From NCBI RefSeq assembly GCF_030540775.2, contig NZ_CP141266.1, positions 523,501 through 587,500 of the forward strand: DNA of 64,000 nt. Direction: 5' to 3'. Below are positions 5,746 through 56,928 of this stretch, one piece after another. The position numbers were made by a program, and so were the translations under genes. The notes below the pieces were generated by a model. It was not told the origin of the DNA. It did no database searches and was given only the letters and a program-made list of their open reading frames with translations. The stretch is from Flavivirga abyssicola (lineage in GTDB: Bacteria; Bacteroidota; Bacteroidia; Flavobacteriales; Flavobacteriaceae). The first letter of the stretch is position 1. Each line of letters starts with the position of its first letter.

Positions 5746-5953
5746 CGTTTAGATTGTTTAATTAGTTAGACAAATCTTTTAATTTATTCTCTCAACTCGC
5801 AATAGATATGTTTTAGAATAAGCAACAAATGTGTTTAAATGTGTAAAATATTACATATTTAAAGTTATTTTGTAAGATTAAGTCTAAAAAAATAAACCAT
5901 ATGCCTTAATAAGGTTAACTTTAAATTTATAAAAAAAACTATTAGGCAAATAA
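5746..5953. promoter_or_regulatory. A+T-rich leader and presumed promoter of the susC operon
   Basis: 208 non-coding bases lie between the hybrid regulator stop and the susC start, both on the minus strand. This is the only upstream region available for the leftward susC-susD-lipoprotein operon. It is very A+T rich. I could not identify a clean core promoter or a strong terminator hairpin in it, so the call rests on position. Confidence 0.35.
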
Positions 5954-8900
5954 TTATTTAACAAAAGTTGTCTTGTTGCGCTTTATTTGTTTCACATATT
6001 CACTAGGCAGTGACCCAAATTGCTTCCTGAAGCATTTAGAGAAATATGATGACGTGTTAAACCCGGTCATATACATAATTTCCTTAACGGAATTATCACT
6101 TTGCTCTAACAGTTGAACGGCTCTTTTTAAACGAATATTTCTAATAAATGCACTAGATGACAAACCTGTAAGATCTTTAAGCTTTATATATAGATTACTA
6201 CGACTTAAACCTATTTCCTTTACCAACAACTCTACATTAAAATCTGTGTTCATCATATGTTTTTCCACAATTTCTATAGCTTGTTGAAGAAATTTTTCAT
6301 CTAAAGAAGTTACTGTAACATCTTCAGGCTGTAAAGTTATTTCTCTATTAAACTTTTTTCTTAACTCTTCTCTATCCTTTAATATATTATTTAGTTTAAG
6401 TTTCAAAATATTAATATCAAAAGGTTTTTTCACATAACCATCTGCTCCTGTTTTTAATCCAGACACTTCACTTTCATTTGATGTTTTTGCAGTAAGCATG
6501 ATAATAGGGATATGACTTGTTTCTGTTTGGCTTTTTAGTGTGTTGCACAATTCAATCCCATCCATAACAGGCATAACCACATCCGTTAAAACAATACTTG
6601 GAATGAAATCATTAGCTATCCTCAACCCTTCTTCGCCATTGCTTGCCTCTACAATATTAAAAGTATCGCTAAGTGCTAATCTTATAAAGGTTCTTATATC
6701 ATCATTATCATCAACAACTAAAACAAGTGGTTTTTTTGATTGTTTTTTTACAATATTGGCATCAGTAATTTCATCATTCATATCTATTGCGAATGACTCA
6801 TTTTCTGAAGTTCTTGTTAAAAAATCACTTTCGGTTTTATCTTTAATACTTATTTCTGGAATGTTTTTATATACATTTTTATCTAATGGCAACTTAACCA
6901 TAAAACTTGTACTGTGGTTTGGGGTGCTTTTTACATCAATGCGTCCTTGATGAAATTTTATTAAACTTTGCGTAAAAGACAGACCAATCCCCGCTCCATT
7001 TTGGGGATTATGTTTATTATTGTTTTTAGTATAAAATCTGTTAAACACACTCTTTATTTCTTCTTCACTAATCCCAGATCCCGTATTTTCTACTTCAATA
7101 ATGACATATCCGGGATCTGAAGCATTTGATACACTCTCTTTTGAAATAACTACATTTATCTTACCATGTGCTGAAGTAAACTTGAATGCGTTGGATAATA
7201 AGTTTTTTATAATTTTTTCAAGAGCATCGTGATCAAACCAAACTTTCATGCTTTTATGAATCGATGAAATATTGAAGTCTATATTTTGCTTATGCGATGT
7301 AAATTGGAAAGGCTCACCTACCTCTTTTACAAAAGCAATAATATCTGTATGACGCATTACCAACCTCATTTTACCTTGATTGATTTTTCTAAAATCCAAC
7401 AATTGATTAACTAACCGCATTAAATAATCAGTATTCTTACTCATTATGCTAAACTGCTCTTTTGTTTCAGGACTTTTTTGTGTGCTTTCAGCATTCATTA
7501 AATAGTCTAAGGGCCCCTTAATCAGTGTTAGTGGTGTTCTAAATTCATGAGATATATTAGTGAAAAATTCTAATTTAGCTACTTGTATTTCTTCCTGTTT
7601 TTCTTTTTCTATATGCTCTAACTCAAGTTGATGTTTTCTGGTCGTTTTTATTATTGTAAATTTCCTAAATGCAAATAATAACCCAAATGCTAATAGTGCA
7701 TAAAAGATATATGCAGGATACGTCTTCCAGAAAGGCGGTGCTATGTGAAGGTTAATGACTTTAGGGCTTGCATCCCAAACACCATCACCATTTGAAGCTT
7801 TAACTTTAAATGTGTAATTACCATGTGAAATATTGGTGTAATTTGCAAACCTTTTTTCTGAGGATGTTTGTATCCAATCCTTATCATATCCCTCCAAAAT
7901 GTATGAAAACTTATTTTTTAGTGAAGCTGCATAATGTAAACCCGCAAACTCTATTGTAAAACTATTTTGATCATATTTTAAATTAATATTATTAATATAA
8001 TTTATTGAGCTATCTATTAATACTTTTCCGTTGTATGCTTCTCCAGGGTTTATTTTATTATTAAAAACCGAAAAGCTTGTAACTACAGTTTGTGCAGGAA
8101 AAACATTTTCATTAATCTCTTCAGGGAAAAAAACATTGAATCCATTAATCCCTCCAAATAGCAAAGAACCATCGCTTCTTTTTAATCCTGCTAATTCTTG
8201 AAATTCGTTATTCTGTAAACCATCATTAACATCGTAGTTTTTAAAACTTTGGGTTTTAGTATCAAACTTTGAAAGCCCTTTATTAGTTGACAACCATAAA
8301 TTACCTAAATCATCTTCAAGAATCGATTTAATAACCTCATTAGCCAAACCATCTTTTTGATAATACCTTACAAATTGATCATTATTCTTACCGTTCCCTG
8401 GCACATATTTATTTAAACCCCCACCAAATGTCCCAACATAAATATCGCCTTCTTTACTTTCATAAATTGGCAAAATATAGTTATGGCTTAAAGAGGTGCT
8501 ATCAGTTGGAATATTTCTATAAACCTCAAATTTCGGGTTATCTTTCAACAATTCTTTTGAGGTAAGCTTAGAAAGCCCTTTTGCCGTCCCAAACCAAATG
8601 TTTCCTTTACTATCTTGATAAATGTTCCTTATAATATTACTTGGAATACTACTTTTGTTATTTTGAATATGTTCAAAAACATCTACTTTATAAGCATTAG
8701 AATTCTTCTGAGGTATTAATCGATAAACGCCTCCTCCATAAGTTCCTAACCAAATATTTTTGTTATTATCTTGTAAAATGGTAAACACACTGCCCATGGT
8801 ATTTACAAAGAGATCAATATTTTGGTTAGAGTTTTTATTTGCTTTATCTATATCTAGTTTAAACAACCCTGGCTTATTTCCAGTTCCAATTAAAAGTGTT

Positions 8901-10162
8901 TTCCTATTATTGACAACAACTTCCTCTAGAGCAAATATTTTTGATAAATCATTAAACTTTTTGAAGTTATTAAACCTCCGGTTTCCATTTTTAGAATTGA
9001 GCAAGTTTAAGCCTCCTCCTTCAGTTCCAACCCATAAATCATTATTACTATCTTCATAAAAAGCCCTTATTTTATCGTAGCTCAAGCTATTTGAGTCTGA
9101 GGTTTTATTTATATGCTGAAATTGTTTTCTGTTAGGGTCAATTTTATTAACCCCTCCTCCATTTGTACCTATCCATAAAATGCCTGTTCTATCTTCATAG
9201 ATACTATTAACGATATTTTTACTTATACTATTAAGGTTAATGGGGTCGTATTCAAAATGATTTTTCTTTTTTAAATCCTTTTCGTTTACAATCCTATTCT
9301 GAGATAAACCTTTATTATTACCAACCCAGTAATTATTATTTTCATCAACAATAAAAGCACGTGTATTGGTATGGGTTAGTTGTATTATTTCATCACTTCC
9401 ATTGACATTCTTCTTGATAAACATCCCTGTATTTGTGGCAATAATAAGTTCGCCATTTTGGTTTTCTCCTATCTGGTTAATTAAATTAAAATCATAGTTA
9501 ATTTTAATAAAATTAAACTGGTTATCTTCATCTTCTATTACTACGTATAGGTCACTATTAGCACCAACCCATACATTCCCATATATATCCTGATAGATAT
9601 CATTTACATTTACAGATTCTTTTGAATTAATTTTCACAAATACTGGGTTGTTTTGTGACGTGCTCAAATCAAGTAAATTAACTCCTTTTTTAGTACCTAC
9701 CCATAGTCTATTATTTTTATCATCAACATAAACACTGTTTATAATATTACTATCCAGTGTATTATCATCATTTACATCATGCAGATATCTCGTGAACTTT
9801 TTCGTTTTTTTATTAAATCTATTTAAGCCTCCTCCAGTTGTTCCTATCCATAAATTACCGCTCTTATCTCCAGTAATATCAAATATAATATTACTACTTA
9901 TACTTTCCTCATTATTAGCGTCAGGTAGATAATTAATAAATTCATAACCATTATACTTGTTAAGCCCATCATAGGTTCCAAACCACATAAACCCGTCTTC
10001 ATCTTGATAAATGCAATTTATATCACTTTGAGATAAACCATCATTAGTAGTAAGGTGGTCAAAAATGATATTGTTTTGAGAATAGCTAATACCAAACATG
10101 AAAAAACATGCTGCTACCCTCAATAAAAATTTATAAAAAAAAGTACGTTTGCTGTGTGTCAT
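5954..10162 (-). CDS. Hybrid two-component system sensor/regulator (HTCS) of PUL 1
   Basis: 1402 residues. An N-terminal signal (MTHSKRT, then hydrophobic) precedes many two-component-propeller repeats (motifs such as GNLWIGTTGGGLNRF and GLSQSDINCIYQDEDG), forming a periplasmic double propeller. A Y_Y_Y domain (about 740-820) and one membrane helix (YIFYALLAFGLLFAF, about 833) follow. Then come a histidine kinase with SHEFRTPLT (His near 872), an HATPase with NLLSNAFKFT and GAGIGLSF, a receiver (VVDDND near 1150, phospho-Asp in LTDVVMP near 1193, K in VKKPF) and a C-terminal AraC DNA-binding domain. HTCS proteins bind an imported oligosaccharide and activate their PUL. It lies between the leftward susCD genes and the rightward hydrolases, ideal for controlling both. 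Confidence 0.96.
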   Translation of the reverse strand: MTHSKRTFFYKFLLRVAACFFMFGISYSQNNIIFDHLTTNDGLSQSDINCIYQDEDGFMWFGTYDGLNKYNGYEFINYLPDANNEESISSNIIFDITGDKSGNLWIGTTGGGLNRFNKKTKKFTRYLHDVNDDNTLDSNIINSVYVDDKNNRLWVGTKKGVNLLDLSTSQNNPVFVKINSKESVNVNDIYQDIYGNVWVGANSDLYVVIEDEDNQFNFIKINYDFNLINQIGENQNGELIIATNTGMFIKKNVNGSDEIIQLTHTNTRAFIVDENNNYWVGNNKGLSQNRIVNEKDLKKKNHFEYDPINLNSISKNIVNSIYEDRTGILWIGTNGGGVNKIDPNRKQFQHINKTSDSNSLSYDKIRAFYEDSNNDLWVGTEGGGLNLLNSKNGNRRFNNFKKFNDLSKIFALEEVVVNNRKTLLIGTGNKPGLFKLDIDKANKNSNQNIDLFVNTMGSVFTILQDNNKNIWLGTYGGGVYRLIPQKNSNAYKVDVFEHIQNNKSSIPSNIIRNIYQDSKGNIWFGTAKGLSKLTSKELLKDNPKFEVYRNIPTDSTSLSHNYILPIYESKEGDIYVGTFGGGLNKYVPGNGKNNDQFVRYYQKDGLANEVIKSILEDDLGNLWLSTNKGLSKFDTKTQSFKNYDVNDGLQNNEFQELAGLKRSDGSLLFGGINGFNVFFPEEINENVFPAQTVVTSFSVFNNKINPGEAYNGKVLIDSSINYINNINLKYDQNSFTIEFAGLHYAASLKNKFSYILEGYDKDWIQTSSEKRFANYTNISHGNYTFKVKASNGDGVWDASPKVINLHIAPPFWKTYPAYIFYALLAFGLLFAFRKFTIIKTTRKHQLELEHIEKEKQEEIQVAKLEFFTNISHEFRTPLTLIKGPLDYLMNAESTQKSPETKEQFSIMSKNTDYLMRLVNQLLDFRKINQGKMRLVMRHTDIIAFVKEVGEPFQFTSHKQNIDFNISSIHKSMKVWFDHDALEKIIKNLLSNAFKFTSAHGKINVVISKESVSNASDPGYVIIEVENTGSGISEEEIKSVFNRFYTKNNNKHNPQNGAGIGLSFTQSLIKFHQGRIDVKSTPNHSTSFMVKLPLDKNVYKNIPEISIKDKTESDFLTRTSENESFAIDMNDEITDANIVKKQSKKPLVLVVDDNDDIRTFIRLALSDTFNIVEASNGEEGLRIANDFIPSIVLTDVVMPVMDGIELCNTLKSQTETSHIPIIMLTAKTSNESEVSGLKTGADGYVKKPFDINILKLKLNNILKDREELRKKFNREITLQPEDVTVTSLDEKFLQQAIEIVEKHMMNTDFNVELLVKEIGLSRSNLYIKLKDLTGLSSSAFIRNIRLKRAVQLLEQSDNSVKEIMYMTGFNTSSYFSKCFRKQFGSLPSEYVKQIKRNKTTFVK

Positions 10163-44161: not shown

Positions 44162-45247
44162 ATGGCAAAATTTAATAGAACAATACCTTATAACGATTTA
44201 CCTCTTTTACCACCAAAGAAGGATTTAGAAACTACAAAAGTATTGCGAAAAACTATTGATGCCAGTAGAGCCTTGGCTCAACTTAATGGGATGCTTACCA
44301 ATTTACCAAATCCTACGTTGTTTTTAGATACGATACACTTACAAGAGGCTAAAGCTAGTTCTGAAATAGAAAATATCATTACTACTAATGATGATTTGTA
44401 TAAAGCTATAGTCGCTGATAAAAAGTTTGATAATCCTGCAACGAAAGAAGTCATAAGTTATAAAGAAGCACTTTGGGATGGTTTACGAGACATTGAAAAA
44501 CGCCCTTTTATAACTACTAATTTATGTGTAGACATAGTACAAAGCATAAAAAAGAATACTGCCGGTATAAGAACAACACCAGGAACTGCTCTTAAAAATG
44601 CAAAAGGAGATACTATTTACACACCACCAACTGGGGAAGACACTATAAGAAAGAAACTAGCCAATCTTGAAACTTTTATTAATGGAGAAGATACTATTGA
44701 TCCACTAATTAAAATGGCGTTAATGCATTATCAATTTGAAGCCATACATCCCTTTAGTGATGGTAATGGTAGAACTGGTCGTATTTTATTGTTACTATAT
44801 TTAAAGATTGAAAACCTTTTAGATACGCCTGCTATTTATTTAAGTGAATACATTATTAAAAATAAAGCAGATTACTATGTGAAATTACGGAATGTTACAG
44901 AAAATGAAGATTGGGAAGCATGGGTACTTTATATGCTTGAAATGATAGAATTTACTGCAAATAAAGGCTTAAAGCGTCTAAAAGATGTAACAGCGCTTAT
45001 GAAGATTATGTCTGAAGAAGTAAAAGCTACAATACCCAAGGTATATTCTAAAGAACTTATAGAAATCTTATTTAGATTGCCTTATACAAAACGTCAATTT
45101 TTAATTGATGCAGGATTAGGTACTCCGAAAACTGTTGGTAATTATCTCATGGAATTAGAACATGCTGGTTTTTTAACTTCTCAAAAAGTAGGTAAAGAAA
45201 AATTATACTTAAACCATAGTTTAATGGCTGTTTTAGAGAAAGATTAA
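44162..45247 (+). CDS. Fic-domain AMP-transferase, class II (self-inhibited)
   Basis: 361 residues. N-terminal Fic_N domain with inhibitory helix motif SSEIEN (66-71, fitting [ST]xxxE[GN], Glu70), then the Fic core with HPFSDGNGRTGR (catalytic His196), and a C-terminal winged-helix part (TKRQFLIDAGLGTPKTVGNYLMELEHAGFL). Such proteins transfer AMP from ATP to target side chains, or de-AMPylate them, and are kept silent by their own helix. No separate antitoxin gene is next to it. Two 29-base direct repeats upstream suggest regulation. Common in Bacteroidota; target unknown. Confidence 0.93.
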   Translation: MAKFNRTIPYNDLPLLPPKKDLETTKVLRKTIDASRALAQLNGMLTNLPNPTLFLDTIHLQEAKASSEIENIITTNDDLYKAIVADKKFDNPATKEVISYKEALWDGLRDIEKRPFITTNLCVDIVQSIKKNTAGIRTTPGTALKNAKGDTIYTPPTGEDTIRKKLANLETFINGEDTIDPLIKMALMHYQFEAIHPFSDGNGRTGRILLLLYLKIENLLDTPAIYLSEYIIKNKADYYVKLRNVTENEDWEAWVLYMLEMIEFTANKGLKRLKDVTALMKIMSEEVKATIPKVYSKELIEILFRLPYTKRQFLIDAGLGTPKTVGNYLMELEHAGFLTSQKVGKEKLYLNHSLMAVLEKD

Positions 45248-45597: not shown

Positions 45598-45963
45598 TTA
45601 AGGATTTTCTTTTTCTTGATGCCATTTTAAACTTAGGGACAAAATTGACTTAATTGACTCCATAGGCAAATCTGTTTGAGGGTTTATTCTAAGTAGCGCA
45701 ATGCTTCTGTGATTTGTTTGCTCTAGGTCGGGATGGTTTAATTGTTTTCCTTCTTCTATTAGAAGACAAGGTTCATTTGTTTTTTTATCTACCCATAAAT
45801 AACAAAACACACTTTCTCTGTACTTAAAAACTGGAGTTTTGTACTTTACTGATTCAGTCAAAAATTGATTGTGACTCAATACTATATCCCTCAAGGCCAA
45901 TAAGCATTCTCTATTTTGTTCATTTTGGTTTAAGAAATAATCGTCAATTTCTTTAAGCATCAT
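45598..45963 (-). CDS. DUF1801-family protein
   Basis: About 121 residues from the ATG at 45963; the open frame also reaches an upstream GTG at 46008, but that adds a residue stretch not needed by the domain. LALRDIVLSH, LTESVKYKTPVFKYRESVFCYLWV and the later QTDLPMESIKSILSLSLKWH fit DUF1801 (YdhG-like) single-domain proteins. Function is unknown in the family. It is transcribed leftwards, about 480 bases from the restriction-like operon, and is probably a separate unit. Confidence 0.75.
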   Translation of the reverse strand: MMLKEIDDYFLNQNEQNRECLLALRDIVLSHNQFLTESVKYKTPVFKYRESVFCYLWVDKKTNEPCLLIEEGKQLNHPDLEQTNHRSIALLRINPQTDLPMESIKSILSLSLKWHQEKENP

Positions 45964-46443
45964 GCTATTCTTATCATTTCTAACAAATATAAAATCTATA
46001 AGAGACACTTTGTGTCAGGCGTACTGATTTTTTAATTGCCTTAAAGATACTTATAAATAGTACTTAATAATGTTTGAAGTTCTAAATTGAGCGCAAAGGC
46101 AAGCTGCTATTTTACATAATGGCGTTATTACTACAGCTTTGGGGATGTGGTGGGTGTAGCCGCTGATGTTATAACAGACCGTTATGTAACTTAGCTTGGG
46201 ATAGGGTTTAAATTATTAGCTTTTTGTTGGAGCAGCTCTTTATAGTTGTGAAATGAGGTACGAATGGAACAAGCTGTAATGTGCTGCAAATGCGTTGGAA
46301 ATTTAAACACTATAGAAGTGTGGCGCGCGGAACAAACCAAAAGACAGAGGGTTTTGAGCTTTCGTCAGGCTCAAGCCAGGGCAAGCGAGAAAACTGGGTT
46401 TTGGTTTGTGGGGAATTAAAATTCCAAAACAATACCTATCATT
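45964..46443. other. 480-base spacer, less A+T rich, no supported gene
   Basis: The stretch separates the DUF1801 gene from the end of the restriction-like operon. It has a noticeably higher G+C content around 46120-46200 and 46320-46400 than its neighbours. An open frame on the plus strand (46281-46463) overlaps the HNH gene and is not credible. It may mark the island edge. Confidence 0.35.
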
Positions 46444-47241
46444 TTAACTTTTTGATGGATTAACTCTTCTATGGTTCTCTAAATAATCTAAATTTGGCCA
46501 CCACAATTTATTTTTTGGTAGTATTATTTTCTGGTTATTAAAGCTACCTGTTAAGGTTTCATCATGACTTGATGATTGTTTTAGCTTTGGGTTAATCATT
46601 ATTTTGTAATTATCACTTATTTTGATGTACCCTTTATCAAATAAACCATGATGATTAGCACATAAAAGCAGTCCATTACAAATATCCATTTTTTGATTAT
46701 TATTTGACTTGGACCATGGTATTATATGAGCTGCTTGTAAAATAATTTTGTAACTGATGCCACAAATAGCACATTTAGATTTATATGCTTTTAATAATGC
46801 TTTCCGGAAAATTATTTGAGCTGTTCCTCGAACTTTAACTTTCTGGAAAACTGTATTTGATTTTTCAGGTTTTTCTAATAGTGTATTAATTAAATCCTGT
46901 TCGTTTTCTTCTGTTAACGCATAGTTAAAAGGGTTTGTAAACTGTGACCAATTGTAGTTGTAAACTTCTCTCTTGCCTTCTTTAATATTATCTCTATCCC
47001 AAGCAATAAAACCTTTTCCAGGCATACCACTTTCATCTCCTATGAGAATTGTAAGAGGTGGTAATTTATTCTCTAAACAATATTCTTGAATAACCGCAAG
47101 CACAAATCTAATGGCTCTATGGTGTATGCCAATTTTATCACCGAGCCCCTTGTATCTAACAAAGTCTTTCTTTTCTGCAACTTTTATTAATACTTCCCAT
47201 GCTTTTGCTGCTCGTTGATGTTGGTTTACTTCTTTACTCAT
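46444..47241 (-). CDS. HNH endonuclease with N-terminal DNA-binding domain
   Basis: About 265 residues from the ATG at 47241, which overlaps the preceding stop by 8 bases; an upstream in-frame start at 47271 overlaps more. The N-terminal part (about 10-85) resembles the winged-helix of alkyltransferase-like proteins: YKGLGDKIGIHHRAIRFVLAVIQEYC, LPPLTILIGDESGMPGKGF. The C-terminal HNH has CAICGISYK, AAHIIPWSKSNNN, MDICNGLLLCANHHGLFDKGYI. It should bind DNA and cleave it with a metal. It is the last gene of the hip-hsd operon, so it is a candidate nuclease of that system in place of HsdR. Confidence 0.85.
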   Translation of the reverse strand: MSKEVNQHQRAAKAWEVLIKVAEKKDFVRYKGLGDKIGIHHRAIRFVLAVIQEYCLENKLPPLTILIGDESGMPGKGFIAWDRDNIKEGKREVYNYNWSQFTNPFNYALTEENEQDLINTLLEKPEKSNTVFQKVKVRGTAQIIFRKALLKAYKSKCAICGISYKIILQAAHIIPWSKSNNNQKMDICNGLLLCANHHGLFDKGYIKISDNYKIMINPKLKQSSSHDETLTGSFNNQKIILPKNKLWWPNLDYLENHRRVNPSKS

Positions 47242-48298
47242 TACGAATTTTTGAAGAGTTTCTGGATTCATTTATAGCCTCTATCAAAGAGTCATAATTT
47301 TTAAGCTCTGATAAGAAAGGTGACTTAAGAAACCCTAAATGCTTATTTGAATCATCATCAATGATTGTATCAAAGGATTTTTGAATTGTATTTTTTGTTT
47401 TACGCTGTTTCTCCAAAACATCACCCAACCAGCTTTTGCCATTTTGTGCTACCTGTCCGAAAAATCTTTTACCTATTTTAAATATGTAATCCCATGATTC
47501 TATTTCTTCATTAAATTTGGCATCACAGACAATATCAATTTTCAATTCTTTTTCTTCTATACGTTCTTTTTTATTTATGTATTTGAATAAAGTTTTAGGC
47601 TCTACTTTAACATTAAAATCTATTTTTGGATGGTTTTTATTAAACGGATAAAATATTTTCTTGCCTTTTTTTAAGATATCCGTTTCCCCTTTAGAATCAG
47701 AATTACAATCATTACATAATGGAAATAAATTGTTGAAGTTAACAGCAGAAAATGGGTAATGTTTTAAGGGTAAGTAATGATCATATGCCGAATGACCTTT
47801 ATCGTAAACATTTTTAATAATACCATATCCGCAGCCTGGGCAAAAACTAAACTCATTATCCCATATTAAATCGTCATAATATTCCTTTTTTGTACCAAAT
47901 TCAGAGAATACATCTTTCCAAGAAAGAAATTTAGAATATAATTCCTTAAAAAAGTCTATTAATAATCCTGAAATTTCATCTTTAACAGAAGATATAGGCA
48001 ACCTCTTCGTTGGATTTAAACACAGATACTCAATATTGTTATTGTTATCAAAAACCTCAATCAATTTTACCCTTTCTTTATTATCTAATTTTTTACTCTC
48101 TTTATAAATAGTTTCAATGGACTTTTTAAACCAATCTGAACGATTATTATCATATAATTTTACTAAAATAGGATATGCCTTTAACTTTGTATAACAGTCT
48201 TCGTTATCTGCTTTACATATAACTTCTACAACCAGATTTCTAATCAAATCATGAGCTTTAAAAATTTTATGTTCTATTTTATGATAACTATATAGCAT
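47234..48298 (-). CDS. HNH-type nuclease partner of the ATPase (Septu/PtuB-like context)
   Basis: 354 residues. A helical N-terminal half is followed by a zinc-type HNH: FCPGCGYG, then AYDHYLPLKHYPFSAVNFNNLFPLCNDCNSDSKG, with four Cys for structural zinc and a D-H pair at the active site. The C-terminal part (about 230-354) is helical. Its ATG overlaps the stop of the ATPase by one base (TAATG), which implies translational coupling. An AAA ATPase with an HNH nuclease partner is the arrangement of Septu (PtuA-PtuB). This call of function rests on context; the family assignment was not searched. Confidence 0.82.
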   Translation of the reverse strand: MLYSYHKIEHKIFKAHDLIRNLVVEVICKADNEDCYTKLKAYPILVKLYDNNRSDWFKKSIETIYKESKKLDNKERVKLIEVFDNNNNIEYLCLNPTKRLPISSVKDEISGLLIDFFKELYSKFLSWKDVFSEFGTKKEYYDDLIWDNEFSFCPGCGYGIIKNVYDKGHSAYDHYLPLKHYPFSAVNFNNLFPLCNDCNSDSKGETDILKKGKKIFYPFNKNHPKIDFNVKVEPKTLFKYINKKERIEEKELKIDIVCDAKFNEEIESWDYIFKIGKRFFGQVAQNGKSWLGDVLEKQRKTKNTIQKSFDTIIDDDSNKHLGFLKSPFLSELKNYDSLIEAINESRNSSKIRNE

Positions 48299-49995
48299 TA
48301 TTTCTTTTTAAGTTCATTCAGTTTAGTAAACAGTAGAATTTTTTCTATTGAATCTCCTAAATCATTTGTTCTATTTTTATATGTTCTTACTTCTTCTTCT
48401 GTTAACGACTTTTTGTTTTTTATTTCTTCTTCAATTTCTAAAATAATTCTTGACGAAAAATCTCCAATAGTATTACCTCTATTAAAAATATTATCCATGA
48501 TTAAGTCTACTGAAGTTCCAAAAGTTCTAAAATTCATGTTAAAAGCACTTTTTGGTTGCTTTCCTTTTTCAAAAACTAATACTTTATCTGGGAAACAGTC
48601 TGAAATAATGAAGGGTGAATGTGAAGTGATTAGGATATCCCTCATTAAATGATTGGTTCCACTTTTACTTAAACTATCCTTTAGTAAACTTATAAACTCT
48701 GAACGCCACTCTGGATTAAAATGTGTTTCTGGCTCATCAAGAAGCATCAATGTGTTTTTATCTTTTAAAATCAAACAAATACCCATTGTGTGTAGAAACT
48801 GATGCTCTCCATCTGAAAATGCCTTTAATAACATTTTGTCTAATGAGTTTTTCTTCTTTATTTTAAATAAATTGAAATGAAATACGAGTTCTGACTCTTC
48901 AAAAGAAGGAACTTTATACATGGCATATAAACTATCTGAATTATAAATCTCTTTCTTAAGCGACTTACTAACTACTCTTAAATTTAATAAATTGAGTATT
49001 TGAAATGCCTTAAATAGCTCTATTGGCGAGTTAAAATGTATCTTAAAGGCTTTTTTTAATTCACTACTTTTAGTTTTAGAATCTTGATCAAAATAAAAAT
49101 CTAATATTTCTATTTTATCATTAGTATTTTGGAATACTGCAGTAGCGCAACTACGCAATTTTTCTAGAATCTCATCTGCAAGTGGTAATAGGTAACCAAG
49201 TTCTGGGTCGTCTGCTTTATGGTATAATTTATGGTCGTTTATTACTAATCTAAAACTATGTAACTTATCTATTTCTAGTTGTTCTTTAATAGGTTCTAAG
49301 GTATCATCATCTTGAATTAAAAAGTTTGCCAGCAATATGGCTTGACTCATATGATAATCCATATACACTAAACTACTTTCGGGTTTTTCATTTAGGTTAT
49401 AAGTAAGCTTTAATTTATTTCTATTTTTAAGATGATAATAGTACTCGTCTAATTGTAGTAATCTTGATTTAACAAATGGAAGGCTTAAAATCTCATTTTC
49501 TCCTGAAGAGTATCCAATAACTAATTCTGGTAAATAACTTCTTATTGGGTTTGAAATCTCTATAAATACAGATTCTGTAATTTGGTCTTGAGCAGTAATT
49601 TTAATCTTTGGCGCTTCTAACTTCTCTTTTCGTATAATTACATTGGCATAATCTTCTACAGATTTTTTTTCGCTCTCTTTAGGAATTATGTAATATTCTA
49701 ATTCATAAGCTATAGGGTCTGATTTTTTTAAGTCAAAATCGTTATCTAAAAACTCTGATGTATTAGAATCAAGTGTACTGCATTCTAAATGATAAAAAAT
49801 ATTAGCCAACGCTTCTAATACATTAGACTTACCACTACCGTTTAAACCTGCGAAACAATATGGATGAAATTGCGTCCATTTTTCATTAGGTTCATCTTCT
49901 CTAAAAAGGACTGTAAAATCTTCAAAACCTTTTTTTGCTTTAATTTTTTTTAAGCTACGAAACTGTTCTAATATAGTAAGCCTTACTAATTTCAT
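48298..49995 (-). CDS. AAA/SMC-like ATPase associated with a restriction-type operon
   Basis: 565 residues. Walker A FAGLNGSGKSNVLEALA near residue 50, a long coiled or helical insert, an ABC-type signature FSDGEHQFLHTMG, Walker B LMLLDEPETHFNP and a switch His in LITSHSPF. Such OLD/RecF-like ATPases are annotated next to type I systems (RloA-like) and form the A component of Septu-like systems. It overlaps the HsdS stop by 4 bases (ATGA) and the following HNH start by one base. It lacks its own nuclease domain (no Toprim seen after about 500), so the adjacent HNH protein is the likely effector. It may sense foreign DNA or nucleotides. Confidence 0.88.
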   Translation of the reverse strand: MKLVRLTILEQFRSLKKIKAKKGFEDFTVLFREDEPNEKWTQFHPYCFAGLNGSGKSNVLEALANIFYHLECSTLDSNTSEFLDNDFDLKKSDPIAYELEYYIIPKESEKKSVEDYANVIIRKEKLEAPKIKITAQDQITESVFIEISNPIRSYLPELVIGYSSGENEILSLPFVKSRLLQLDEYYYHLKNRNKLKLTYNLNEKPESSLVYMDYHMSQAILLANFLIQDDDTLEPIKEQLEIDKLHSFRLVINDHKLYHKADDPELGYLLPLADEILEKLRSCATAVFQNTNDKIEILDFYFDQDSKTKSSELKKAFKIHFNSPIELFKAFQILNLLNLRVVSKSLKKEIYNSDSLYAMYKVPSFEESELVFHFNLFKIKKKNSLDKMLLKAFSDGEHQFLHTMGICLILKDKNTLMLLDEPETHFNPEWRSEFISLLKDSLSKSGTNHLMRDILITSHSPFIISDCFPDKVLVFEKGKQPKSAFNMNFRTFGTSVDLIMDNIFNRGNTIGDFSSRIILEIEEEIKNKKSLTEEEVRTYKNRTNDLGDSIEKILLFTKLNELKKK

Positions 49996-51401
49996 TTAAC
50001 TTGTAATTTTAAATTGTTATCAGTAAGTTCTTGTATAATTTCGTCTTCCTCAATTAATTGAAATAGCTTTTCTTTTGCATTAGAATAATCCTTTAAATCA
50101 TCAAACTTTTTTGAATCGAATAAATCAATTAAAAATTGAAGCCTTTTTTTATTTCCTTTTAAATCTTCAAACGTGAATTTTTTAATTAACTCTTTGAATA
50201 TTGGCTCTTCATCTATTACCGTACCTTCTTTAAAAGCATTTTGTAGTACAGATTGAAAAAGAGCTTTCATTAGTGATAAAGATTCTTCCATTTGATTTCT
50301 TAACTCATCTAACTGCTTAACTATTATTGAAAAGTCGTTTTGTAGCTTTAAGTCTGGAACAGGTATTTTTATTTCCCTTAATTTGATGAGACTTATTTCT
50401 TTGAATGTAGCTCCCTTCAATTGTTTATCAAGTAAAAATTGAAAACCACTACTTAATAAAGTATAGTATAAAAAGGAAGGATTAATAAGTTCTTTATTTG
50501 TGCTTAAAATAGCAATACCTCTTGTCAAATTATATCCTACAAATTCCTTACTTATATAAGCAACATCACCCACATTAGCTCTTATAGTTAACAATACATC
50601 ACCTTCAGCACAAATAGTTCTATTGTATTTTTCAGAGATTTTTTCACTTGTTTTTAATTGGGTAGAAATATTAATTGCTCCATTTTTTATATCTCCAGAT
50701 CTTAAATATGGAACCCCATTTTCAATATGAGGACCCGCTTGTACTATCCCATAAGTTATACCCTTATCTTTTTTTACTATTTGATTTAACTTTTTTAATG
50801 GATATTTATTTTGATTATTTACTGGATCACCAAACTCCCTATGATATATCGATTTTGATAGTTTATTGATAACCTCAATCATCTCAATACGGTTATCAAT
50901 AGATGATTGAATTAGATTTAAACTCTCCACAATTTTTCTCTGAAATTCTAAACTCTTTGGAAATTTAATTGATAAGCTCTTTAATGATTTATTGTTTAGA
51001 ATAGGTATTGTAGCTCTATTTGCCTTAAATTTCAAAAGCTTTTTATTTAGATAAACCCAATAATAGAAGAAATGAGGAAGAATAATTTTATTGTTTACAT
51101 TTATTCCTGTAATTTGTTGGTTTGACGCTACTGGCTTTTTTACCACAGCTACTTTAGCAATATTTTCTCCAATTGTAGATATTAATACTGTATTACTAGT
51201 ATGTAAAAATGCTTGCTTTTCAATTACAGCTAAACCTGTAAGAGTCCTTTCTGATGAAAGAATAAACATTTGGCCTTTCAAGTCTCCTGGTGTAACGAAC
51301 GGAATATTTCCATCAAAATACAATGACTCTTTGGTGCTTGGTGTTTTCCCAGTTTTTATTGAAAGGACTATATCTTCAATTTTTTTTGAAATAAATTCCA
51401 T
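49992..51401 (-). CDS. hsdS: Type I restriction-modification specificity subunit HsdS
   Basis: 469 residues from the ATG at 51401; the open frame also has a TTG at 51419. Two target recognition domains are visible: FISKKIEDIVLSIKTGKTPST... with PHFFYYW and VESLNLIQSSIDNRIEMIEVINKL, then YPLKKLNQIVKKDKGITYGIVQAGP... with PSFLYYTLLSS and IIVKQLDELRNQMEESLSLMKALFQSVLQ. The spacer helices between them set the split target sequence. An extra acidic, helical tail (about 395-469) follows the second coiled region. It pairs with the HsdM encoded upstream. The target sequence cannot be predicted from sequence alone. Confidence 0.92.
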   Translation of the reverse strand: MEFISKKIEDIVLSIKTGKTPSTKESLYFDGNIPFVTPGDLKGQMFILSSERTLTGLAVIEKQAFLHTSNTVLISTIGENIAKVAVVKKPVASNQQITGINVNNKIILPHFFYYWVYLNKKLLKFKANRATIPILNNKSLKSLSIKFPKSLEFQRKIVESLNLIQSSIDNRIEMIEVINKLSKSIYHREFGDPVNNQNKYPLKKLNQIVKKDKGITYGIVQAGPHIENGVPYLRSGDIKNGAINISTQLKTSEKISEKYNRTICAEGDVLLTIRANVGDVAYISKEFVGYNLTRGIAILSTNKELINPSFLYYTLLSSGFQFLLDKQLKGATFKEISLIKLREIKIPVPDLKLQNDFSIIVKQLDELRNQMEESLSLMKALFQSVLQNAFKEGTVIDEEPIFKELIKKFTFEDLKGNKKRLQFLIDLFDSKKFDDLKDYSNAKEKLFQLIEEDEIIQELTDNNLKLQVK

Positions 51402-51402
51402 A

Positions 51403-53055
51403 CTAAAATTCTTTTTCAAAAATTTTTAATGATTCCTTTATTATATTTTCAAGTTCACTTAATTTCTTTATCAACTTTTCAGGCGGTTCATAATTCTTGT
51501 CTTCAAAAACAAATTCTTTGTAAAAATTAAAGTTTAGCTCCAGAGCATTATCTTCAATATCTTTTAAAGGGACATAGAAGTGATTTTGCTTCCTGTCTTT
51601 TTGAGGATTATTTCTTTTATCTTTAGTTTTATACTCATTAATCAGTATGGGTAACGGATAGTCATCTTTAATTTTTTTTCTACTACTATCTAGAGTGTAC
51701 CCATCAGATTCCAGACCATAGAACCAAACCTTTTTAGTATGAAATGTTTTGCTATTGAATTGTTTTTTTGTGAATACTAAAATAGACGTTTTAACAGCGG
51801 TATATGGGTTAAACACACCACTTGGCATAGAAATTACAGCCTCTAAATCGCAATCCTTTAAAAGTATTTCTCTAGTTTTTTTGTATGTTTTACTTGAACT
51901 AAATAATACCCCTTCTGGCACGACCACAGCAGCACGACCACCTTTTTTGAGCATATAAATGATACGTTCTAAAAATAACAACTCAGTTTTTAGCGTTTGA
52001 TTTTTCTTTGCATCTGGTTTGATATCATAAATCCTATTAAGGTTTTTACTAATAACCTTACTATTTACTTTGGCAGCAAATGGTGGATTGGCCAGTATGT
52101 AACTATACTCTTCTTTCCCCCAATTAGTTGTTTTTTTAGTGGGCGATTTTGTAGTTTTGATACTTGCCTTTACTTTGCCATCTATTAAATTGCCTACAGT
52201 AATTTGATTTAAATATTTCTGCTCAAAATAATCTTCATACTGATTTGATAGTGTATTTAAATGAATGATATGTGGTTTTTCAATACCATGCATCATCATA
52301 TTCATCATACCTATACGTACCATGGTTGCATCAATATCAAAACCATAAAACGTATTCTCTTTTAAACGTTGTTTGTCATCTTCTGATAACTTATCGCCAT
52401 CTAATCCTTTTGGTAACTGGTTGTCTTCATCTAATTCTACTTTTTTAGAATTTTCTTTTAGTACATATTGGAAGCTCCCTACTAAAAAACCAGAACTTCC
52501 ACTTGTTACATCACAAATTTTAGTATCTGAATCAACAATTGTTGGCGCAACTAATTCTGCCATCATTTGGATAATGTGCCTTGGTGTACGGAATTGTCCA
52601 TTTTTACCAGCTTCGTTAGTAGCTCTTAACAGGTATTCATAAACATCTCCTAATAAATCTTGAAAGTTTTGGTGTTTGCTTTCTTCTTTTTCAACTAACG
52701 TAAATATCTCATCAATAATACTTACAGCGTCTTCTAATAGTGATGGTGTAGAGATACCAAACTTTGCTTTTTTCATTTCTTCCGCAAAAGGATCTTCTTC
52801 TTCTTCTTCATTAGATAAATCGTTTTGAATAAAATGAAAAACTTCATCGAACTTTGCTTTTAGTTCATTTCCATTTAGCTTATGGTACTTACTCCATTTA
52901 AATTTATCATCTACCTCTTCATGAAACTTCTCTAATCGTTTCATGAAAATTAAATAAGAAATATTTTCGATAGCTGTTATCGGGTTTGAGAGACCTCCAC
53001 CCCAAAGTCTATCCCACAATAACTGTATCTTACCTTTTATACCTGTTGTTAACAT
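51403..53055 (-). CDS. hsdM: Type I restriction-modification methyltransferase HsdM
   Basis: 550 residues. HsdM_N domain (GKIQLLWDRLWGGGLSNPITAIENISYLIFMKRLEKFHEEVDD) is followed by the N6-adenine methylase core: ICDVTSGSSGFLVGSFQYVL as motif I (Ser in place of the common Cys) and ILANPPFAAKVNSKV as the catalytic NPPF. With HsdS it would methylate adenines at an asymmetric split site. Its start lies 8 bases after the HipT-like stop, and HsdS follows after one base, so it is in the middle of a single operon. The N-terminal LWGGGLSNP is a known HsdM_N sequence. Confidence 0.94.
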   Translation of the reverse strand: MLTTGIKGKIQLLWDRLWGGGLSNPITAIENISYLIFMKRLEKFHEEVDDKFKWSKYHKLNGNELKAKFDEVFHFIQNDLSNEEEEEDPFAEEMKKAKFGISTPSLLEDAVSIIDEIFTLVEKEESKHQNFQDLLGDVYEYLLRATNEAGKNGQFRTPRHIIQMMAELVAPTIVDSDTKICDVTSGSSGFLVGSFQYVLKENSKKVELDEDNQLPKGLDGDKLSEDDKQRLKENTFYGFDIDATMVRIGMMNMMMHGIEKPHIIHLNTLSNQYEDYFEQKYLNQITVGNLIDGKVKASIKTTKSPTKKTTNWGKEEYSYILANPPFAAKVNSKVISKNLNRIYDIKPDAKKNQTLKTELLFLERIIYMLKKGGRAAVVVPEGVLFSSSKTYKKTREILLKDCDLEAVISMPSGVFNPYTAVKTSILVFTKKQFNSKTFHTKKVWFYGLESDGYTLDSSRKKIKDDYPLPILINEYKTKDKRNNPQKDRKQNHFYVPLKDIEDNALELNFNFYKEFVFEDKNYEPPEKLIKKLSELENIIKESLKIFEKEF

Positions 53056-53063
53056 ACTGATTA

Positions 53064-54017
53064 TTATTTCTTAAAATTTAAATTTACTTGTTTTGCTCTT
53101 GTATTTATAAGCTCTAATACTGTTTCCTTCATATCCTCACTTAAAAAACTATTGTTTATTAGTTGTGTCCAATTTTGCATGCCTTTTTCTATCCTATTCC
53201 AAAGGTTTTCTATTGCCTTTTCAGGAATATGTGCTTTGGCCATAACCTCATTAAAATCTTTTCGTTTTAACTTTCTTTTTTTACCATTAAGATTTAGGGC
53301 CAATTCTTCCGGGTCATCGGGGATTAATAATTTTACTGCTACCATATCATAAGCTGGTGCTAACTGATATTGGTTGTTTTTAAGGGCTATTAGTGAAAAG
53401 TTCTTTAAGTGCATATCGTTATTTCCGATAAGAAAGGACACGATTACTTGCTGGTAAAACTTTACTACTTCCAACAGCGGGTTTTGTGCATAAGTTATTA
53501 TTCCTTTTGCTATCTGTTCATACGAGCCACGGTATTTGTGCTCTGTTAAGCGCTCGGTAAATTGACACGCATCTTCCATTGGGTGTTTTTCATCTTTAGT
53601 AGTTCGGTCTATGCGCCTTGTTAAATATGCTAACTCTCCACTTTTCATTGGTATCAATAAAAATGGTACTGTATCAATACCGCATGCCTGTGTTAGTAAC
53701 ATTGATAATGCTTCTATCTCTGGCATTTGAGGATATAATTCAAAAGGTGGTTTTAGAATGTATCTACCATTTAATGCTCCCACAATGGTTAATCTATTCT
53801 TATCTTCCCCTCCGGTAAACCCTAATGATAATTTTGGTTGCACTCCAGTCACTATGACCCGTTGTACTATATTTTCTTTTGCCAATTCTACTATTTTGGA
53901 AAGCTCATAGTCTAACTCCAGGACAGGTGTATCTTCTTGCCAAAATGTTTTTAAGCAACTTTCGTGGTACTTTAAATTACCTTCCAACACTTTATTACAG
54001 GCTAAACAGTAGCTCAT
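53064..54017 (-). CDS. HipA C-terminal kinase (HipT-like toxin)
   Basis: 317 residues from the ATG at 54017, which overlaps the previous stop by four bases (ATGA); a longer start at 54101 overlaps it by 88. N-terminal zinc-like CLACNKVLEGNLKYHESC is common in Bacteroidota HipA. Kinase features: VTGVQPKLSLGF loop, GRYILKPP, FLIGNNDMHLKNFSLI (catalytic Asp and Asn) and LAPAYDMVA (Mg-binding Asp). In E. coli HipA the loop holds an autophosphorylated Ser; by my alignment (VIVTGVQ against ISVAGAQ) the residue here is Ile. It probably phosphorylates a tRNA synthetase or similar target. Subdomain 1 is encoded separately by the gene before it. Confidence 0.9.
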   Translation of the reverse strand: MSYCLACNKVLEGNLKYHESCLKTFWQEDTPVLELDYELSKIVELAKENIVQRVIVTGVQPKLSLGFTGGEDKNRLTIVGALNGRYILKPPFELYPQMPEIEALSMLLTQACGIDTVPFLLIPMKSGELAYLTRRIDRTTKDEKHPMEDACQFTERLTEHKYRGSYEQIAKGIITYAQNPLLEVVKFYQQVIVSFLIGNNDMHLKNFSLIALKNNQYQLAPAYDMVAVKLLIPDDPEELALNLNGKKRKLKRKDFNEVMAKAHIPEKAIENLWNRIEKGMQNWTQLINNSFLSEDMKETVLELINTRAKQVNLNFKK

Positions 54018-54328
54018 ATACTTCTTACACTTATATTCCCTATACAATCCCGACAGATTGTTAGTAACAGCCCCATACGATCCCGTGGGTTTATTTTCCA
54101 ATTTTTATGTGCTATGTCCAACAACCATCCTTCTGGTATGAGACCGTCAAAAAAAGGAAATAAATTTTCTGAATGAAATGGGTCTTTTTGTAATGGCAAG
54201 GTCAACGACACCGGTAATGCTTTTTCTTGCTCTAAATACTCTTTCTGGTAATTAAAGTGATAGCCGTTATCGTCTTCAGTCAATATTCCTGACAATTGAT
54301 TATTCACCCAAATTTCTCCTTGTCTCAT
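54014..54328 (-). CDS. HipA N-terminal subdomain protein (HipS-like)
   Basis: 104 residues from the ATG at 54328 (the frame also has an adjacent GTG). GEIWVNNQLSGILTEDDNGYHFNYQKEYLE and LFPFFDGLIPEGWLL, DRMGLLLTICRDCIGNISV are the couple_hipA subdomain normally fused to the kinase. Here it ends with its own TGA and the kinase starts with an ATGA overlap, so it is a separate protein. In the E. coli HipBST system this small protein is the antitoxin. Its start overlaps hipB by 29 bases. That it is antitoxic here is inference. Confidence 0.88.
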   Translation of the reverse strand: MRQGEIWVNNQLSGILTEDDNGYHFNYQKEYLEQEKALPVSLTLPLQKDPFHSENLFPFFDGLIPEGWLLDIAHKNWKINPRDRMGLLLTICRDCIGNISVRSI

Positions 54329-54542
54329 CACTTATAGGTGTTGGCGTTAATGTATGCCCAAAAAACAACAATATTTGGTTGATTTTATCTGTCATTAAAT
54401 TGGGTTTTCCTTGTTCTAACTCGCGTACAAAACGAACTCCTACACCTGTTATATCTGCTAATTCTATTTGGGTTAGGTTTGATTTTTTGCGTCTATTACG
54501 TACAAAGTCTGCTATTGCATTATTTCTATTCCACTCTTGCAT
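54300..54542 (-). CDS. HipB-like helix-turn-helix regulator
   Basis: 80 residues, a Cro/C1-type domain: FVRNRRKKSNLTQIELADITGVGVRFVRELEQGKPNLMTDKINQILLFFGHTL. It is the first gene of the leftward operon hipB-hipS-hipT-hsdM-hsdS-ATPase-HNH-HNH. The three palindromic boxes at 54545-54564, 54586-54605 and 54626-54645 just upstream are the expected binding sites, analogous to HipB operators. As a regulator it would control both the toxin module and the methylase/nuclease genes, if they share one message. Confidence 0.9.
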   Translation of the reverse strand: MQEWNRNNAIADFVRNRRKKSNLTQIELADITGVGVRFVRELEQGKPNLMTDKINQILLFFGHTLTPTPISDETRRNLGE

Positions 54543-54544
54543 AG

Positions 54545-54645
54545 TTATACCTTTACGGGTACAATATAATGAATTTACATTAACATTATACCTTTTTGGG
54601 TATAATTTATATTAAAAACATATTTTTATACCCTTTTGGGTGTAA
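54545..54645. promoter_or_regulatory. Three 20-base palindromic operators upstream of hipB
   Basis: Box 1 (54545-54564), box 2 (54586-54605, a perfect TTATACC-N6-GGTATAA) and box 3 (54626-54645, TTATACCC-N4-GGGTGTAA) are spaced 41 and 40 bases apart, about four helical turns. Box 1 is next to the hipB start codon, so a bound repressor would cover the leader. Binding by HipB is inferred. Confidence 0.7.
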
Positions 54646-56553: not shown

Positions 56554-56795
56554 TTGTGGTCAAATGCTGTACAACGTTTAGCATATGAAAAGTAGGGCAA
56601 TTGATAAGCACTTATTTTCGGTTTTGTACTTAGCCATATTTTTCATTTTATTTTTATCTTTTCACTAAAATACAAATTAAAAATATAGCGGACTTTGTTA
56701 ATATTCACTGACTTTTCGGTTTAGCAAAAACGCCCTATGTTTTTTATACATCTTCGTTGTACACATTATTTCTATTCAATTTACTTAACAAATAC

Positions 56796-56803
56796 TATAT
56801 TTG
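56796..56803 (+). promoter_or_regulatory. -7 promoter element (TATATTTG) of the TPP-riboswitch transcript
   Basis: TATATTTG fits TAnnTTTG exactly and lies 8 bases before the first conserved base of the riboswitch at 56811, the correct place for a start site near 56809. Confidence 0.6.
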
Positions 56804-56810
56804 TCAAGCT

Positions 56811-56885
56811 TTAGGGGTATTCTATATAAGAATTGAGAGAGTCCCTTTGAACCTGATATGGTTAACACTATCGTAGGGAAAAGTC
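56811..56885 (+). promoter_or_regulatory. TPP (thiamine pyrophosphate) riboswitch
   Basis: The conserved pieces appear in order: TTAGGGGT, GAGAGAGTCCCTTTGAACCTGAT and ATGGTTAACACTATCGTAGGGAA (pyrophosphate-binding and pyrimidine-binding junctions). The structure is complete, though the P3 side is short. It controls the downstream tenA and HAD genes. When TPP binds, expression should fall. Confidence 0.93.
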
Positions 56886-56928
56886 TAGTAATTAATAAGA
56901 GAGAACTTCCTCTTTTATTAATCAGACC
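56883..56928 (+). promoter_or_regulatory. Candidate expression-platform hairpin of the riboswitch
   Basis: GTCTAGTAATTAATAAGAGAG (56883-56903) pairs with a later GTCTGATTAATAAAAGAG complement near 56911-56928. A short T-rich tract follows at 56940. It could act as a terminator in the TPP-bound state, although no long T run is directly behind it. Confidence 0.4.

Follow-up and report, generated by a model that had tools for sequence, protein, structure and literature searches.

We analyzed a 64,000-nucleotide stretch of the genome of Flavivirga abyssicola (hereafter the window; positions 523501-587500 of contig NZ_CP141266.1, assembly GCF_030540775.2), a single-contig genome of 4.68 Mb that is 99.91% complete. 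The window contains eight co-directional genes on the minus strand, at positions 46444-54542: hipB, hipS, hipT, hsdM, hsdS, an ATPase gene, and two genes encoding HNH proteins (HNH1 and HNH2). An earlier note, made from the sequence alone, had described a one-strand operon of seven genes; the strand, the coordinates, and the junctions hold, and the count is eight. The genes overlap by 4 bases at hipS/hipT and at hsdS/ATPase, meet in a TAATG at ATPase/HNH1 and in ATGAGTAA at HNH1/HNH2, and are 8 bases apart between hipT and hsdM. The four genes hsdM, hsdS, ATPase, and HNH1 form a core that recurs in other genomes and is the main subject of this work.

The core begins with hsdM (51403-53055, minus strand, like all genes of the operon), which encodes a type I N6-adenine methyltransferase of 550 amino acids (aa; 178.7 bits with the Pfam profile N6_Mtase, 425 bits with the PADLOC model MTase_I) and has an NPPF motif. 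It is followed by hsdS (49992-51401 from an ATG start, with an alternative TTG start at 51419), whose product is a specificity subunit with two target-recognition domains and an extra C-terminal domain. The third gene (48298-49995) encodes a PtuA-like ATPase of the ABC/AAA_21 type, with 565 aa, and the fourth, HNH1 (47234-48298), a PtuB-like HNH nuclease of 354 aa. The ATPase scores 547 bits with TIGR04435, the NCBI family of restriction system-associated AAA family ATPases, well above the curated cut-off of 300. It also matches the PADLOC model PtuA1 (179 bits, residues 1-546) and the PtuA chains of the PDB in profile searches (down to E 2.2e-10), and its GxNGSGKSN and LLDEPETH columns are conserved in the alignment of its relatives. 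The five best structure matches of the predicted fold of HNH1 are all PtuB, and a PADLOC PtuB model was matched by 70 of the 71 sequences scanned. The NCBIfam model of PtuB (the retron Ec78 equivalog) gave only 16.3 bits against a cut-off of 150. Judging by these profiles and by the predicted fold, the ATPase and HNH1 are a Septu-like pair of PtuA and PtuB and not an unknown pair. The earlier note knew of no described system with this arrangement. The name of the NCBI family shows that the link of this ATPase to restriction has already been noticed, while the same is not necessarily true of the form lacking HsdR. In our searches of open-access literature, which excludes most subscription papers, neither the family name nor TIGR04435 turned up in any paper, and among the papers listed none describes HsdMS with PtuAB in its title or at the beginning of its abstract; an earlier description is thus possible.

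Of the components that define type I restriction-modification (R-M) systems, the locus thus has HsdM and an HsdS with two target-recognition domains and lacks the motor-nuclease HsdR. The earlier note had remarked on this absence, and our search of the window bore it out. It had also raised the possibility of an hsdR elsewhere in the genome, which we reject. The profile HSDR_N (PF04313) had a single match, a 957-aa protein whose only Pfam domain is MmeI_N. An HsdR of the family that accompanies the core in other genomes (the cognate HsdR, see below) retrieved only a 543-aa helicase. SWI2_SNF2 matched this same helicase and a 996-aa helicase-like protein without a match to HSDR_N. As controls, HSDR_N, SWI2_SNF2, and N6_Mtase were detected in, respectively, 9, 10, and 13 of 14 genomes. 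The hsdM of the window is the only full-length N6_Mtase match of the genome, the other one spanning 105 of 311 positions. The 957-aa protein lies in another island (3.81-3.83 Mb), together with a tyrosine-recombinase-like gene and a gene for a 723-aa helicase-like protein, both recognized by eye.

Proteins that score above the cut-off of TIGR04435 occur in 8 of the 395 genomes surveyed in the phylum and in 2 of 12 of the genus, the genome under study being counted in both. To the 7 other loci of the phylum we added the 80 best of 200 relatives among genome contigs. These were ranked by likeness to the window, which over-represents the HsdR-less relatives close to it. The order HsdS-ATPase-HNH1 was found in all 87 loci, with strict adjacency in 85; the exceptions are a RhuM-like gene between HsdS and the ATPase (L109) and an ATPase split over two frames (L081). 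HsdM was present in 78. Among the nine loci where it was not tallied, seven are at contig edges (L053, L073, L085, L094, L095, L096, and L098, of which L085 and L098 retain HsdM-like pieces), L060 has a 459-aa HsdM-like frame, and L103 has an integrase-like gene, identified by eye, in the place of HsdM. The hosts include Bacteroidota, Desulfobacula, Methylobacter, Stenotrophomonas, and Paenibacillus, among others. Given this fixed order, chance is an implausible account of the core, and the earlier concern that gene-order comparison might reveal mere chance neighbors does not apply to it: HsdMS, the ATPase, and HNH1 are a genuine recurrent unit. The flanking hip genes and HNH2, by the same comparison, are not conserved. 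Phage records gave no match, and plasmids gave four records. Viral contigs yielded two complete loci, each with the order HsdR-HsdM-HsdS-ATPase-HNH1 (L252 and L253), and a weak partial match (L254).

Some of the loci have extra genes inside the operon or at its edge (L056, L057, L059, L090, L099, L102, L107, and L109), which Pfam searches on one or two members per cluster identified as a YhcG/DUF1016 nuclease, a Schlafen/AlbA-HATPase protein, and RhuM. Another locus, L222, is possibly a degraded member, where HsdR and HsdM were detected, HsdS and the ATPase were not, and a 114-aa HNH1-like frame remains.

We also inspected 13 loci beyond these, around weaker TIGR04435 homologs and L239. HsdM and HsdS stand by the ATPase in nine of them (L239-L245, L247, and L250; HsdM is downstream in L240), eight of which have more distant, sub-cut-off PtuA-like ATPases. 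In L240-L245 and L247, the ATPase is followed by genes that resemble, by eye, PtuB-type HNH genes (KCWYSE...DHFRPK or CxxC...EHF), less clearly so in L244, and Pfam backs this assignment in L243 only, and weakly. HsdR is present in L239, L243, and L250 and absent from the genes read in L241, L242, L244, L245, and L247. The coupling of HsdMS with PtuAB, with and without HsdR, therefore seems to span several PtuAB lineages.

Among the 87 relatives, 46 have an HsdR of one family (ResIII, EcoEI_R_C, and HSDR_N in the single member for which Pfam was run), encoded upstream of the ATPase, on its strand and 3 to 6 genes away. Two of these frames are short (734 aa in L060 and 514 aa in L092). No HsdR was found in 27 loci and in the window, which makes 28 HsdR-less rows. 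The upstream room before hsdM in these loci goes down to 2.4 kb (L083), and they include L069, counted here because its HsdR-like gene lies far away, on the opposite strand. The other 14 loci are uninformative, because of insufficient upstream room or, in L078, of a terminal partial HsdR-like frame. The ATPase and HNH1 are thus not simply substitutes standing in place of HsdR, as had been proposed. The NPPF columns of HsdM are kept in all rows compared, both HsdR-less (27/27) and HsdR-bearing (45/45). The nearest relatives of the window (L040, L041, L042, and L048) form a clade and are all HsdR-less. One clade of 42 rows takes in 24 of the 28 HsdR-less rows, alongside 12 HsdR-bearing and 6 uninformative ones. 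The HsdR-less label needs 14 changes, against a mean of 24.0 when shuffled, and 8 without the 14 uninformative rows. Hence, the HsdR-less state is clustered yet occurs in several clades, and we reject a single HsdR-less clade under a quick LG+G4 tree. The tree gives no direction of gain or loss. Loss is visible in one locus, L056, where a match of 43 residues, 88% identical to the C-terminus of HsdR, lies upstream of a YhcG-like gene and hsdM. In the other HsdR-less loci we found no HsdR remnants (tblastn, E 1e-4), the remote gene of L069 excepted. The HsdR-less locus L075 has, in the position of HsdR and 5 bases ahead of hsdM, a gene for a 1050-aa SIR2_2 protein (3630-6782).

We compared three HsdR-less relatives from two orders: L044 (Flavobacterium beibuense), L045 (Aestuariivivens), and L046, from a metagenome-assembled genome (MAG) of Prolixibacteraceae. 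Their DNA is 81-90% identical over a stretch that begins at hsdM or as much as ~200 bases ahead of it and ends ~100-160 bases past HNH1, a block inside hsdS excepted, and beyond this common stretch there are only short matches of 106-145 bases, between L044 and L045. The ratios of nonsynonymous to synonymous substitution rates (NG86) are 0.05 in hsdM, 0.04-0.05 in the ATPase gene, 0.07-0.10 in HNH1, and 0.18-0.26 in hsdS. The HsdR-less cassette thus recurs and transfers as a unit, under purifying selection in this set of three copies. With 28 HsdR-less rows, motifs kept, and such selection in the trio, we reject the idea that the HsdR-less state is the decay of one strain. The block inside hsdS, of ~560 bases (9170-9730), is an exchanged one, and such swapping of specificity without HsdR argues that recognition still matters. 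Other pairs reveal how the parts differ: L062 and L065 are 84% identical in HsdM, 60% in HsdS, 91% in the ATPase, and 45% in HNH1; L056 and L065 are 76% identical in the ATPase and 70% in HNH1, L056 and L057 78% and 45%; and the window and L040 are 70% identical in HsdM, 68% in the ATPase, and 26% in HNH1. The stable components of the system are HsdM and the ATPase, while HsdS and HNH1 vary (the alignments took in HNH1 from 71 and HsdS from 43 available sequences). Apparently, the HNH1 effector is swapped independently of the ATPase, much like the specificity domains.

The extra C-terminal domain of HsdS (49992-50225, residues 398-475 when numbered from the TTG start) adds ~78 residues and is modeled as helices and a hairpin with fair to good confidence (predicted local distance difference test of 79-91 in blocks of 10 residues). 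A fold search with the whole HsdS model aligned the ten best solved S subunits within residues 2-404, except for an EcoKI model fitted to electron microscopy data, which aligns over residues 5-438. The tail sequence of L044 had no credible match in the PDB. A hidden Markov model (HMM) of the tail matches 86 of the 89 HsdS of the system, its own training set, and three of four independent ones, each of which precedes the ATPase (L177/L233, a single gene, L252, and L253). It matches none of 40 control HsdS (26 from a family search and 14 from HsdM-anchored loci) that have visible downstream sequence and no such ATPase. These tail-free controls include HsdR-HsdM-HsdS operons with an HsdR of the same family (L214, L219, L220, L224, and L230; 1365-1718 bits). 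Four of 44 initial controls were set aside for ending at or at most ~100 bases past hsdS (L169, L215, L216, and L218), as were a fragment (L221) and two weak fusion proteins (L228 and L232). The tail is linked to the presence of the ATPase (Fisher p 2.3e-4 with the 44 controls, before the four were removed and ignoring relatedness), which suggests that HsdS and the ATPase-HNH pair are physically linked, with the tail as a possible docking arm. In the trio, the exchanged block leaves the tail on the side of the ATPase.

The remaining genes of the operon are accessories of this one locus. Upstream of the core, hipB (54300-54542) encodes an Xre-type helix-turn-helix (HTH) protein (Pfam HTH_3, 30.6 bits; TIGR03070, 68.3 bits, slightly below the cut-off of 71.65), hipS (54014-54328) the HipA N-terminal subdomain as a gene of its own (Couple_hipA, 96.4 bits; TIGR03071, 109 bits), and hipT (53064-54017) a HipA_C kinase domain, as in HipBST-type toxins (149.6 bits). 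The split Hip module recognized by the earlier note thus matches, in gene order and domains, the reported hipBST organization (PMC8262856). Unlike typical HipBST, the trio immediately precedes a defence operon that runs in the same direction. HNH2 (46444-47241, from an ATG within its junction with HNH1, 47271 being also possible) has a match to HNH_2 (56.8 bits). As far as the flanks of the 87 loci were fetched, HNH2 has one weak match, ~4.7 kb past HNH1 (L055), and the full HipBST trio occurs once, ~4 kb past HNH1 (L049), with single HipA-like genes in three more loci (L044, L078, and L119). Near-full-length relatives of HNH2 occur in 2 of 247 genomes of the class, where the short flanks showed no gene of the core, and its remaining matches outside the genome under study mostly span the HNH half. 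We thus reject HNH2 and HipBST as conserved parts of the system.

Just upstream of hipB there are three palindromes, TATACC-N6-GGTATA (54546-54563, 54587-54604, and 54627-54644, no strand assigned), spaced by 41 and 40 bases. They are the only such sites in the 64 kb with at most one mismatch; with two mismatches there are 7 sites against 3.25 expected, a number reached in 4 of 100 shuffles. These are likely HipB operators, and HipB is likely the autorepressor of the operon, which it may control even though the hip genes are accessory. Small HTH genes lie ahead of hsdM in several relatives, of one cluster (L043, L044, L083, and L089), the one of L043 matching Pfam HTH_26/HTH_3.

Past the 3' end of the operon come a DUF1801 protein (45598-46008) and a Fic/DOC-family, SoFic-like protein (44162-45247, plus strand). 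On the other side, a thiamine pyrophosphate riboswitch (RF00059, 74 bits; 56803-56896, plus strand) precedes genes for a 220-aa protein (56968) and a HAD-family protein (57627). An intergenic stretch of ~190 bases (~56560-56751), without a match in Rfam, is a dispersed repeat, whose relatives, ~68-94% identical, are found on both strands elsewhere in this genome and in those of the genus, often in several copies each.

With a probability of about one half, we consider the core a four-gene defence module of HsdM, HsdS, a PtuA-like ATPase, and a PtuB-like HNH nuclease, here devoid of HsdR, in which HsdMS senses unmodified DNA or disturbance. It is probably an antiphage system where a mark on DNA holds a nuclease in check. 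We infer its docking, trigger, nuclease target, and antiphage role as follows. HsdM2S would methylate a bipartite site on the host DNA, and the PtuAB-type complex would dock on HsdMS by the extra domain of HsdS, remaining silent while HsdMS meets methylated sites. An encounter of HsdMS with incoming DNA that has unmodified sites, or a disturbance of HsdMS itself, would cause the ATPase to release or activate the HNH nuclease, which would cut phage DNA, or tRNA as in retron-Eco7 and Septu EcB88, and stop the infection. PtuAB of these two systems are reported to cut tRNA-Tyr, and Septu of ATCC 25922 to cut DNA; Septu EcB88 is reported to require both the Walker residues of PtuA and the HNH residues of PtuB (PMC11555353, PMC13096335). 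The exchange of target-recognition domains in HsdR-less copies favors the idea that methylation marks self. This swapping, together with purifying selection without HsdR, speaks for unmodified DNA as the trigger, and the precedent of PrrC and the many HsdR-bearing relatives speak for inhibition of the complex. A more specific version, possible and held tentatively, is a restriction free of HsdR, in which M2S reads unmodified DNA and switches on a PtuAB effector via the C-terminal domain of HsdS, the specificity regions and the HNH effector being exchanged as cassettes around a constant HsdM and ATPase. Should it be true and the effector cut tRNA, this would be an R-M system that recognizes foreign DNA by methylation and kills by stopping translation.

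Several observations weigh against the four-gene, HsdR-less module. The sequence of HNH1 has no credible match in the PDB. HsdR is present in 46 of the 74 informative loci (window counted), so the pair is not tied to life without it. The swaps of target-recognition domains may be passive recombination. The HMM detected no tail in L239, with an ATPase of 331 bits, or in any HsdS beside the eight sub-cut-off ATPases, and the tail is therefore no universal dock. Finally, SWI2_SNF2 proteins occur in 25 of the 27 genomes of the HsdR-less relatives. Two of these genomes have a near-full-length match to the cognate HsdR family, 34-35% identical, and three more (G408, G413, and G415) have frames of 797-831 aa that match it in part. 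An HsdR acting in trans is therefore unlikely only in the genome under study and in six without an HsdR-sized match: G417 and G419 (a 2.7-Mb MAG, possibly incomplete) have none, and G400, G405, G411, and G418 only frames of 505-559 aa.

Alternatively, PtuAB might be a guard, latent in HsdMS(R) and unleashed by a phage anti-restriction protein (Ocr or Stp-like) to cleave tRNA and abort the infection, the HsdR-less copies retaining HsdMS as bait. The tRNase of type I operons, PrrC, is reported to be restrained by the type I complex and freed on its inhibition (PMC3874165, PMC12707154), a precedent that speaks for this guard, as do the cleavage of tRNA-Tyr by PtuAB and the frequent presence of both HsdR and the pair. 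However, a bait without restriction function would sit poorly with the strong purifying selection on HsdM in the three measured copies and with the exchange of specificity regions in HsdR-less ones, and we regard this alternative as rather unlikely. An addiction or licensing, where methylation by HsdMS keeps PtuAB from acting on the DNA of its own cell or on replication and defence results from self-killing upon failure of methylation, would fit the fixed co-occurrence of methylase and nuclease pair in the 87 loci and the growth arrest reported for co-expressed PtuA and PtuB in the retron-Eco7 study (PMC11555353). It is improbable, as it would make the tail of HsdS unnecessary.

It is quite improbable that two independent modules, a Septu and an orphan methylase of type I, merely travel together. 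Distant ATPase-HNH pairs do occur without detected HsdM or HsdS in 4 of the 13 further loci (L246, L248, which is a 5.4-kb contig, L249, and L251), but the co-occurrence and order are fixed in 87 of 87 loci, the tail is linked to the ATPase, and the boundaries of transfer in the trio close around the four genes. Most improbable is the version of the earlier note, in which all eight genes belong together, HNH2 being another nuclease and the Hip kinase a backup by growth arrest. The genes are co-directional with short or no gaps, and HipB-operator-like sites lie upstream of the first one. However, the single occurrences of HNH2 and HipBST among the 87 loci do not adjoin the core, and the role of HipB is more plausibly that of an operon regulator.

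Compared with known systems, the four-gene module shares HsdM and HsdS with EcoEI-type (type IB) R-M, the type to which the HsdR of the 46 relatives belongs according to the scanned member. It differs in the added ATPase-HNH pair, the extra domain of HsdS, and, in this genome, the lack of a detected HsdR. The methylation-associated defence system (MADS) and BREX also combine a methylase and an ATPase in their defence logic. HsdM, HsdS, and the ATPase are distantly similar to MAD2, MAD5, and MAD3, at scores far below the curated cut-offs (respectively, 127.9/720, 59.3/400, and 17.9/420 bits), as is the score with PglX of BREX-6 (24.5/900 bits). PrrC is one protein carrying its own nuclease part. 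With EcoprrI the module has in common an ATPase-type effector inside a type I operon, of which a set HsdR-HsdS-PrrC-HsdM has been cloned (PMC3874165, PMC12707154, PMC11555353). In contrast to PrrC, the ATPase and HNH1 are separate and of the PtuAB type, HsdR may be missing, and the Pfam and NCBIfam matches of the ATPase (AAA_21/TIGR04435) include no PrrC family.

The pair also resembles Septu and the effectors of type I-A retrons (Ec78 and Ec83), with which it shares a PtuA-like ATPase adjoining an HNH protein of PtuB fold, and the Walker and HNH residues. HNH1 is longer (354 aa) than the matched PtuB chains (205-258 aa). Unlike these systems, the pair is coupled to HsdM-HsdS, and no reverse transcriptase, as in retron type I-A (Septu type II), was matched among ten proteins, the eight of the operon and one neighbor per side. 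Two forms of Septu are known, one a stand-alone pair and the other retron effectors that the retron complex neutralizes, a division into stand-alone and reverse-transcriptase-linked types reported in the PADLOC paper (PMC8565338). If our reading is true, a sequence-specific methylase would be a third sensor and PtuAB a general plug-in effector, which would explain methylases without HsdR. It becomes directly testable whether a type I methylase can be the sensor that tells self from non-self in an abortive system, and "orphan" HsdMS adjoining this ATPase are not to be taken for inactive restriction systems.

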